NCBI RefSeq assembly: GCF_900110135.1
Contig: NZ_FOCO01000007.1
Coordinates: 85,859 to 149,858 of the forward strand
DNA from: Pseudorhodobacter antarcticus
GTDB lineage: Bacteria; Pseudomonadota; Alphaproteobacteria; Rhodobacterales; Rhodobacteraceae
Reading direction: 5' to 3'
Length of the DNA: 64,000 bases
Below the pieces are notes generated by a model, which was given only the letters and a program-made list of their open reading frames with translations, was not told the DNA's origin and ran no database searches. Made by a program: the position numbers and the translations under genes. Position 1 is the first letter of the stretch, and every line of letters begins with the position of its first letter. Of this stretch, positions 8,925 through 56,398 are shown piece after piece.

Positions 8925-9356
8925 ATGAGCGACGCCGAGATGATGAAGCTTTATTCTGGGCGCATTTTGGAACTTGCAGCACATATTCCGCATGTGGGCC
9001 GCCTGCCCGCCCCGCAAAGTACGTCGCGCAAACGGTCGCCATTGTGCGGTTCGGTTGTGACCGTGGACGTGGTGATGCAAAATGGCCGGGTGGTGGAATT
9101 TGCCCAAGATGTAAAGGCCTGCGCCTTGGGCCAGGCGGCAGCTGCCGTAGTGGGGTCTGCGGTGATCGGGCAAACAGCGGCGGGCCTTGCCATAGCACGC
9201 GACGCATTACGCGAGATGCTGGCGGCGGATGGCCCGGTGCCAAGCGCACCTTTTGATGGGTTTGCTGCGCTTGCGCCCGCACGAGACTTCAAGAACAGGC
9301 ACGCATCGATCCTTCTGGCGCTGGAAGCGGCGACAGAAGCCGCTGAAACTGCATAA
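8925..9356 (+). CDS. Iron-sulfur cluster assembly scaffold protein, NifU/IscU N-terminal type
   Basis: A 143-residue protein of the NifU-N/IscU/SufU fold, which holds nascent Fe-S clusters. Two cysteine positions are clear: PLCGSVVTVDV and VKACALGQAAAAV, the latter followed by the usual AlaGln helix. The third canonical cysteine near the C-terminus is not seen, so this is the variant form common in alphaproteobacteria, and its scaffold role is by family resemblance. The start at 8925 has an AAAGGAGG site nine bases upstream. It is divergent from hisI. Confidence 0.85.
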   Translation: MSDAEMMKLYSGRILELAAHIPHVGRLPAPQSTSRKRSPLCGSVVTVDVVMQNGRVVEFAQDVKACALGQAAAAVVGSAVIGQTAAGLAIARDALREMLAADGPVPSAPFDGFAALAPARDFKNRHASILLALEAATEAAETA

Positions 9357-9393
9357 AAAAACCGCCGCGCACCCCAAGGGTGGCGGCGGCAAG
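9357..9393 (-). terminator. Rho-independent terminator for the minus-strand small gene
   Basis: On the minus strand, CCGCCGCCACCC pairs with GGGTGCGCGGCGG across a short loop and is followed by a run of seven T residues. On the plus strand the run appears as A residues before the stem, so termination is for leftward transcription, downstream of the 40-residue membrane-peptide gene. It lies directly after the NifU-like stop. Confidence 0.7.
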
Positions 9394-9499
9394 GGGCGTA
9401 TCTGACGGGCGCAGCTGGGGAGGGACACCCCCATAAAATGCGTGGCACAGGTTTGGGACAGGTGCGCACGCCCGAGGCAACAGATCGCGGGCAGTAAAC

Positions 9500-9622
9500 T
9501 TAAATTAGGGACGGCAAGGACAGGCCTGCGACCAGCACGGCAAACAGCGACAACACCCCAAATGCATCCTCCCACAGGGTTGCGGACGAACGGGCGGCGA
9601 CGGCTTTGATTTCGGTGATCAT
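9500..9622 (-). CDS. SOS-controlled 40-residue membrane peptide
   Basis: A short gene read leftward from ATG at 9622 to TAA at 9500. It encodes 40 residues: MITEIKAVAARSSATLWEDA followed by a hydrophobic helix FGVLSLFAVLVAGLSLPSLI. The start is convincing, with AATAAGGAGG six bases upstream. The product should be a single-pass inner-membrane peptide with a short, partly charged N-terminus. Two perfect LexA-type boxes lie within 70 bases upstream and a Rho-independent terminator lies downstream, so it forms its own SOS-type transcription unit. Known small SOS membrane peptides include SidA (division inhibitor) and TisB (toxin), but no sequence identity to them is claimed. Confidence 0.8.
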   Translation of the reverse strand: MITEIKAVAARSSATLWEDAFGVLSLFAVLVAGLSLPSLI

Positions 9623-9638
9623 TGGAACCTCCTTATTT

Positions 9639-9653
9639 GTTCTTACATTGTTC
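9639..9653 (-). promoter_or_regulatory. LexA box 1, GTTC-N7-GTTC
   Basis: GTTC at 9639-9642 and GTTC at 9650-9653 are exactly seven bases apart, matching the SOS operator described for Rhodobacter and other alphaproteobacteria. A third partial half-site, CTTC, follows at 9661-9664 after another seven bases. The box lies 17-31 bases ahead of the small-peptide start, where a bound repressor would cover the promoter. Confidence 0.75.
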
Positions 9654-9676
9654 TCACATTCTTCACGGGCTGTAAA

Positions 9677-9691
9677 GAACTTTATGAGAAC
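9677..9691 (-). promoter_or_regulatory. LexA box 2, GAAC-N7-GAAC
   Basis: GAAC at 9677-9680 and GAAC at 9688-9691 are seven bases apart; on the minus strand this is GTTC-N7-GTTC. A further GAAC at 9698-9701 follows with spacing six. Together with box 1 this gives two perfect operators within 53 bases, upstream of the 40-residue peptide gene and just past the recG stop. Confidence 0.75.
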
Positions 9692-9709
9692 ATCTTAGAA
9701 CAAAAAGGG

Positions 9710-13947
<4,238 letters not shown>

Positions 13948-29825: not shown

Positions 29826-30623
29826 ATGCTTGACCCGGCCCCCCCATCAAACCTACGCTTGATCGCCATTCCCCGGCTGGCCGCCAATGGCCGCTGGCGG
29901 GTGGAGGCGATGCGCGCGCTATCCGAACCGATGCTGCTTTGGGTCACCAAAGGCCAAGGGCGGATTACGATTGCCGGATCGACGCGGGGCTATACCGCCA
30001 ACAATGCGGTGTTCATTCCGGCAGGGGTGATGCATGGGTTTGAGGTGGGGCCGCAAGTGTTTGGCACCGCCGTTTTTTTTGGCAAATCCTGCGATGTGAT
30101 CTTGCCCCGCGTGCCGCATCATTTGCGCATCCGCGAAACCCATGCGCAACAAGAGTTGAACATAACGCTGGATGCGATTTTGCGCGAAATGAACAGCACC
30201 ACGCCTGCGCATGACCGCGCAACGCGGCATTATCTGGGGCTGCTAGGGGTGTGGTTGGAGCGTCAAGTGGACAAGGCGGGCGATGAGGTAAAGCGCCCGG
30301 ACGCCGCCCACCGATTGGTCGCGCGCTATTCCAGCCTGTTGGAACGCAATTTTCGGTCCGGCATGGGGGTTGGGGATTTTGCAGGGGCGCTGGGTGTGAC
30401 GCCCACGCATTTGACACGCTGCTGCAAGCTGGCCTGCGGCAAGCCTGCATCGGCATTGTTGCAAGATCGCTTGATCTTTGAAGCGCGAACCTTGCTGTCG
30501 GAAACACGGATTCCGGTGGGGCAAATTGCGGGTGCGCTTGGCTTTGCCTCGCCCGCGTATTTCACCCGTGCGTTTCAGCAAAAAACCGGCAAGTCCCCGT
30601 CGGCGTTCAGAAAAGAGCCTTGA
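29826..30623 (+). CDS. AraC family transcriptional regulator
   Basis: A 265-residue regulator. Residues about 10-100 form a cupin-like sensor (TKGQGRITIAGSTRGYTANN, then FIPAGVMHGFEVGP), and residues about 160-260 form the double helix-turn-helix of AraC/XylS proteins (GVGDFAGALGVTPTHLTRCCK; GQIAGALGFASPAYFTRAFQQKTGKSPSAFR). It lies 240 bases ahead of the ABC importer operon in the same direction, so it probably controls uptake. The ligand is unknown. Confidence 0.9.
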   Translation: MLDPAPPSNLRLIAIPRLAANGRWRVEAMRALSEPMLLWVTKGQGRITIAGSTRGYTANNAVFIPAGVMHGFEVGPQVFGTAVFFGKSCDVILPRVPHHLRIRETHAQQELNITLDAILREMNSTTPAHDRATRHYLGLLGVWLERQVDKAGDEVKRPDAAHRLVARYSSLLERNFRSGMGVGDFAGALGVTPTHLTRCCKLACGKPASALLQDRLIFEARTLLSETRIPVGQIAGALGFASPAYFTRAFQQKTGKSPSAFRKEP

Positions 30624-56313: not shown

Positions 56314-56398
56314 GATGTGGCCTCGTGTGTGTTCAACCGCCGGGGGCGCTGCCCCGCATGTCCATTGTTCTTGAACCAATGGCGAACGAACGAACGCG

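Follow-up and report, generated by a model that had tools for sequence, protein, structure and literature searches.

A 40-residue peptide gene and the structured RNA that lies behind it appear to form a previously undescribed unit carried by most Rhodobacteraceae genomes. This is our best reading of the locus, and within it the assignment to the SOS response is well supported by sequence. The original prediction for this DNA proposed an SOS-controlled small membrane peptide of Rhodobacteraceae; the co-conservation of peptide and promoter and a promoter box like that of lexA and recA support that proposal. The gene is located in a 64-kb stretch of DNA, the whole of which we refer to as the window and in which NCBIfam names ligA, ctrA and recG. 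The features of the locus are listed below. Unselected loci are 30 loci of relatives chosen by their peptide alone, and pooled loci (n = 107) are these 30 together with 77 loci chosen by their promoter.

9500..9622, minus strand: peptide gene, 40 aa, stop included; ATG start, one predicted C-terminal membrane helix
9628..9634, minus strand: Shine-Dalgarno sequence AAGGAGG, by reading of the sequence
9639..9653, plus strand: LexA-type box 2, GTTC-N7-GTTC, equal to GAAC-N7-GAAC on the gene strand; overlies the predicted -10 and start
9647..9652, minus strand: predicted -10 hexamer AACAAT, from a consensus promoter scan
9671..9676, minus strand: predicted -35 hexamer TTTACA, from the consensus scan; TTTAC in 27 of 30 unselected relatives
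9677..9691, minus strand: LexA-type box 1, GTTC-N7-GTTC; abuts the -35, present in 30 of 30 unselected relatives
9698..9701, minus strand: third GTTC half-site, 6 bases upstream of box 1; in 23 of 30 unselected and 86 of 107 pooled loci
9391..9494, minus strand: conserved structured RNA element in the 3′ UTR, from covariation, an arm-swap test and fold z; YUGYCY motifs mostly single-stranded
9354..9390, minus strand: intrinsic terminator (GCCGCCGCC stem, U run), from the fold and reading of the sequence
9710..11797, minus strand: recG, the usual upstream neighbour (NF008164, 1101 bits against a cut-off of 785)

On the gene strand, the recG stop is followed by the GTTC half-site (9701–9698), box 1 (9691–9677), TTTACA (9676–9671), 18 nt, AACAAT (9652–9647) with box 2 over the -10, the Shine-Dalgarno sequence and the ATG. 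TTTACA-18-AACAAT is the sole promoter-like match between 9300 and 9800 in the consensus scan, a method that misses other promoters. The open reading frame, ATG and strong ribosome-binding site claimed for this gene are all present, as are the two exact GTTC-N7-GTTC elements in opposite orientation, and one of the claimed extra half-sites was confirmed, at a 10-bp step (9698–9701). A terminator behind the gene, claimed as well, is also present but is not adjacent, being separated from the gene by a conserved structured RNA of about 104 nt; it is absent from the output of a consensus terminator scan and is visible in the fold and by eye. On the far side, a convergent gene (8925–9356) resembles a SufU-type Fe-S scaffold, with 47.9 bits, below the curated cut-off of 92.5. 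The end of recG is overlapped by a weak hairpin (9708–9729) that resembles a terminator and has a T run, and some recG transcription may read through into the peptide gene.

A single-sequence search found the peptide in 36 of 101 relatives. Loci were available for 30 of these 36 matches and were read, and in every one the frame runs for exactly 40 aa from its ATG, ungapped, with M1, D19, G22, L30 and L34 invariant. The median dN/dS among the 30 peptides is 0.33 (348 calculable of 435 pairs), and it lies between 0.06 and 0.29 in 20 of 21 pairs from seven same-genus peptide sequences. By this measure, the peptide gene is under purifying selection. The original prediction had called for a search for conservation, with a lack of it counting against the proposal; a profile built from the 30 peptides finds the gene in 341 of the 394 genomes drawn from the Rhodobacteraceae, which represent 340 of the 393 genera, and the other 53 genomes have no match in this profile search. 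The gene is nearly always single-copy, with two copies in genomes G390 and G431. Four family genomes (G031, G104, G141 and G149) have the promoter pattern described below and no peptide match; their peptide may have diverged beyond the profile. In a class-wide draw, the profile matched 3 of 240 genomes, all 3 of them Rhodobacteraceae, and none of our searches, this draw included, gave a match outside the family that was confirmed as a peptide gene.

The protein database holds 787 relatives of the peptide, and among the 120 of these listed, wherever a source name is given it reads hypothetical or uncharacterized protein. One of these relatives is SPO1682 of Ruegeria pomeroyi DSS-3, which the main text of no paper covered by a literature search names. 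The same search returned no paper evidently about the peptide gene, at a level at which passing mentions would not show. The gene is not named in excerpted text of a paper on LexA sites in D. shibae (PMC6473078), and the main texts of sRNA papers on R. pomeroyi (PMC4809877) and Paracoccus (PMC5107571) contain neither recG nor LexA. Pfam, NCBIfam and PADLOC gave zero family matches, Pfam also for all 30 members, and PHROGs gave two marginal matches (E 0.04, one member each).

The genomic position is also kept. A recG-like tail precedes the promoter in 105 of the 107 pooled loci: 99 were recognised by pattern, five more by reading and L144 separately, with L121 too short and L126 ambiguous. A mobile origin was considered and rejected, the promoter being found in no viral contig, the window peptide in no phage record and a relative of it in no plasmid record. 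Some variants were seen behind the same promoter: peptides of about 31 aa in two Paracoccus records and in L211, whose peptide is similar but has lost the conserved G (loci L128, L184 and L211), and peptides with a different N terminus in the Planktomarina records L135, L139 and L168.

The promoter is kept along with the peptide. In all 30 peptide-chosen loci, box 1 is followed by TT and GAACAA stands at the -10; box 1 and GAACAA are separated by 21 nt in 29 loci and by 20 nt in one, whereas the distance to the ATG ranges from 31 to 69 nt in the same loci. Of the 'two perfect LexA boxes' described in the original prediction, box 1 is thus constant in relatives, whereas box 2 is perfect in only 6 of the 30 unselected loci. 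In the pooled loci, the second half of box 2 reads CAAC in 93 cases, GAAC in 8 and otherwise in 5 (106 of 107 being long enough), which places the window among the few loci with two perfect boxes. The 77 added loci were chosen by their promoter letters, and their peptides by D/E-x2-G and a length of about 40; neither the letters nor the lengths used for this choice were taken as evidence of conservation, and only letters outside the pattern are informative in the pooled 107. The third GTTC stands 10 bp above box 1, an N6 spacing and not the N7 of LexA, and some loci have a fourth GTTC; the upstream core is A-rich and helically phased.

The promoter also leads back to the peptide. A promoter-only scan of genome contigs yielded at least 118 loci and, among the matches listed, 114 of 118 have the peptide downstream (95 by a strict motif and 19 by reading frames). 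Of the other four listed, two end at the edge of the locus (L146 and L229) and two have no peptide (L170 and L192). The latter two, titled Thermolongibacillus and Acidimicrobiaceae, respectively, carry the promoter pattern outside the family and are probably chance matches. A looser promoter pattern occurs in 307 of 394 family genomes and is missing from 87; the reversed control gave 2 matches.

The first reading of the locus had passed over the region between the stop codon and the terminator. On the evidence of its motifs, folding and covariation, this 3′ region is a conserved structured RNA. The terminator was recognised by pattern in 85 of the 107 loci, 73 of which gave an RNA within the set anchors and lengths, and 64 RNAs were left after removal of near-duplicates. 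Between the peptide stop and the terminator, CTGTCC occurs in 67 of 85 loci (6.8 expected), and the same 3′ region contains TGTCCC in 73 (9.1 expected) and CTGCCT in 68 (8.9 expected). The general form of these motifs, YUGYCY (YTGYCY in DNA), occurs 3.60 times per RNA (range 1–7) against 0.84 times in shuffled sequences, and its complement is almost absent inside the RNA (0.02). Predicted unpairedness is 0.70 for CTGTCC and 0.76 for CTGCC, compared with 0.44 overall.

Several tests address the fold. The arms of the outer stem pair better with their own partners (-21.5 kcal/mol) than with foreign ones (-14.7 kcal/mol), a difference reached in 0 of 10,000 permutations over the 64 non-redundant RNAs, relatedness not being modelled; a control stretch shows no gain (own -12.2, foreign -12.8). 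The own 3′ arm ranks first in 14 of 64 RNAs and within the best tenth in 39. All 64 RNAs fold better than their shuffles (mean z -2.66, with z ≤ -2 in 43), and the stretch 9354–9500 of the window, terminator included, has a fold z of -2.72. RNAalifold found no consensus pairs when 34 RNAs were aligned by MAFFT, and the structure emerged only from small subgroups and a covariance model: of five subgroups, two show clear structure and three weak structure or none. Covariation was seen in 8 of 27 pairs in a MAFFT alignment of 7 RNAs and in 6 of 25 pairs in one of 9.

A covariance model built from 9 RNAs gave 57 matches in 100 loci (635 kb), all directly behind the peptide and on its strand. These loci had been chosen for the peptide, and the 57 comprise the 9 training sequences, 30 others with E < 0.01 and 18 with E between 0.012 and 0.62; in the other 43 loci, this first model gave no match with an E of 1 or less. 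The window's own RNA is among the 18, as a weak match (E 0.18) to this model, which was built independently of it. In the 57-RNA alignment (A5), which is fitted to the structure by construction, two-sided changes are seen in 24 of 25 pairs, the share of cells that pair is 89.9% compared with 71.5% after shuffling, and 198 cells are two-sided compared with 48. With a second model, in which the window's RNA is included, a single credible copy is found in the genome (E 1.4e-6, a value that is not independent), and 2 of 142 genomes from across the class give a match, both of them Rhodobacteraceae. Two further genome matches were set aside as noise, one (24 bits, E 0.24) lying within a long coding frame that by eye resembles a gamma-glutamyltransferase and the other having an E of 4.4. 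Rfam gave 0 matches in the window between 8800 and 10000, and at four relatives' loci its best score was 24 bits, where the gathering score is 196.

Two features by which dual-function RNAs are recognised are thus found together here: an open reading frame under protein selection and a conserved structure outside it. Whether the RNA has a separate regulatory function is, in our estimate, evenly balanced. The locus could also encode an SOS peptide alone, with LexA likely in control and the folded 3′ region protecting the mRNA or setting its lifetime, a reading to which we give substantial weight, if less than even. It is in line with the strong selection on the peptide and for the finding of the RNA only with the peptide, directly behind it in 57 of 57 matches (in loci chosen for the peptide). 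However, protection of an mRNA needs a stem and not a repeated single-stranded motif, and it leaves aside a YUGYCY motif that is about fourfold enriched over shuffles with its complement all but absent.

The peptide itself is very probably a single-pass membrane peptide. The best 17-residue hydropathy mean is at least 1.96 in all 107 pooled peptides; a charged residue occurs among the last 20 in 1 of 107, and the best hydropathy segment contains a charge in 7 of 107. In the window, the C-terminal half of the peptide is hydrophobic, in agreement with the C-terminal membrane helix originally claimed. The mean net charge is +0.12 before the segment and 0.00 after it, and because these flanking charges hardly favour either side, an N-in/C-out orientation is a guess.

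A single helix, about 40 residues, a LexA-type promoter and a structured RNA in the transcript are also what a TisB-like membrane toxin would present. Such a toxin would lower the membrane potential and lead to dormancy, and its antitoxin might be an antisense transcript or another RNA. We consider this unlikely. The helices of pore-forming small toxins are usually charged or amphipathic, whereas the helix here is nearly uncharged, with the single exception in 107 noted above for the last 20 residues. The region has one promoter-like site, on the sense strand, in a consensus scan that misses others. Finally, most toxin-antitoxin loci are not widespread and single-copy, whereas this gene is widespread and nearly always single-copy in the family.

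The identity of the boxes was assessed against chance and against known LexA targets of the family. Only one other exact GTTC-N7-GTTC occurs in the window, where 1.79 (s.d. 1.42) are expected per 64 kb, and two exact boxes within 53 bases are, as the original prediction held, not expected by chance. Across the window's genome (G000), exact boxes number 71 compared with 157 in the reversed control; eight fixed bases alone therefore say little, and the case rests on conservation. Chance boxes are rejected by the conservation of the promoter in relatives. The lexA promoters of the family contain GAAC-N7-GAAC in 23 of 23 used (24 lexA loci were among 30 fetched, and L074 was left out as unreadable), and the same box is found in 13 of 17 recA promoters, several of which have, by eye, a TGAGAACAA block at the position of the -10 box.

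A LexA matrix trained on 44 lexA and recA boxes, with the eight GAAC letters fixed by construction, ranks the two boxes of the peptide promoter first (9639–9653, 22.6 bits) and second (9677–9691, 16.6 bits) over both strands of the 64 kb, where the 99.99th percentile is 3.4 bits. The other exact box of the window (56373–56387) scores 5.9 bits, which indicates that the flanks carry weight in the matrix, and was taken as noise. The third matrix match (30143–30165, 13.9 bits), inside an open reading frame that is AraC-like by eye, was likewise set aside as noise. In relatives, box 1 has a median score of 15.9 and the -10 box one of 14.1, both below the training-set median of 23.9 (range 10.3–30.6). 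Triple arrays of GAAC half-sites are seen by eye in 9 of 23 lexA promoters (L062–L065, L067, L070, L072, L086 and L088), and L070 has the same N7/N6 steps as the peptide promoter. In Caulobacter, the LexA consensus is GTTCN7GTTC and about 97% of SOS promoters have a single box (excerpted text of PMC12700426). Given the box shared with family lexA and recA promoters, the matrix ranking, the Caulobacter consensus and the triple arrays in lexA promoters, LexA is highly likely to control the peptide gene.

It is correspondingly improbable that the repeats serve another regulator, or are phased A-tracts forming a curved or UP-like element. The core GTTC-n-CAAAT-GTTC-TCAAAAA-GTTC-TTTACA is indeed A-rich with 10- and 11-bp steps, the N6 step is no LexA spacing and the -10 box is mostly imperfect; but the same box stands in the lexA and recA promoters of the family, similar triple arrays occur in those 9 of 23 lexA promoters, one of them (L070) with N7/N6 spacing, and the -10 block is like that of several recA promoters. 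Least probable is that the locus exists for a regulatory RNA, with the frame being incidental, as, well kept though structure and motif are, the 40-codon frame is ungapped in 30 of 30 loci with dN/dS well below 1 and D19, G22, L30 and L34 invariant.

On balance, we lean towards an SOS unit in which peptide and structured RNA share one transcript, predicted to be induced by damage, and together likely delay division. LexA would sit on box 1 at the -35 and on the often partial box at the -10, and repress. Upon DNA damage, cleavage of LexA would allow a transcript of about 290 nt to be made, and this single short transcript would supply both the peptide and the conserved folded 3′ RNA. The peptide would insert in the inner membrane as one helix and hold the late divisome (FtsW/FtsI/FtsN) inactive, as SidA does in Caulobacter, and the three to four loop-exposed YUGYCY motifs of the 3′ RNA would pair with or titrate a trans partner. 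Division arrest as the main action of the peptide is put forward tentatively. It is favoured because SidA, the closest alphaproteobacterial analogue, acts in this way, and because a helix with hardly any charge is better suited to a membrane partner than to a pore. More speculatively, a damage checkpoint of the whole family could reside in one core LexA-controlled dual-function transcript that joins a divisome-stopping 40-residue peptide to a multi-loop RNA, with exposed YUGYCY motifs that regulate RNAs or sequester a protein in trans.

A few lineages are known to have short membrane peptides induced by the SOS response, each with its own sequence. If our reading is correct, the gene described here would provide such a peptide for the Rhodobacteraceae, present in most of the 393 genera sampled and yet unnamed, and the structured RNA would link post-transcriptional control to the SOS response. 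The question of a division halt after DNA damage in this family becomes directly testable, for example with SPO1682 of Ruegeria pomeroyi and in further laboratory strains. From a search that was not exhaustive, we know of no alphaproteobacterial precedent for an SOS peptide transcript with a structured RNA of repeated motifs.

Several known systems resemble parts of this unit. TisB/IstR of Escherichia coli combines an SOS-induced single-helix peptide with a regulatory RNA at the locus, and an SOS-type single-helix peptide and an RNA are predicted at one locus here too. It differs in that the helix here is almost uncharged, no antisense promoter is seen by the consensus scan, and the gene is a widespread core gene, usually behind recG. 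The dual-function RNAs SgrS/SgrT and Pos19, a Rhodobacter small coding RNA, likewise place a peptide and a structured RNA on one short transcript; they belong to other regulons, and the RNA here has no Rfam match near a gathering score. In the dicBF locus of a cryptic E. coli prophage, the small protein DicB and the sRNA DicF are encoded at one locus and regulate cell division (excerpted text of PMC10448788). The coupling of a small protein and an RNA is shared, but dicBF is a prophage operon, whereas here a chromosomal gene has a LexA-type promoter and the mRNA itself supplies the RNA as its 3′ part. The nearest likeness is to SidA of Caulobacter crescentus, which has 29 aa and acts on FtsW (excerpted text of PMC4211646). 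Both are alphaproteobacterial and very short inner-membrane peptides (here by hydropathy), SidA being SOS-induced and the present gene having an SOS-type promoter. The likeness is one of description, and the peptide here has 40 aa. Box 1 is accompanied here by a second, often partial, box, in contrast to the single box in about 97% of the SOS promoters of Caulobacter (excerpted text of PMC12700426), and the structured 3′ RNA belongs to the Rhodobacteraceae locus.
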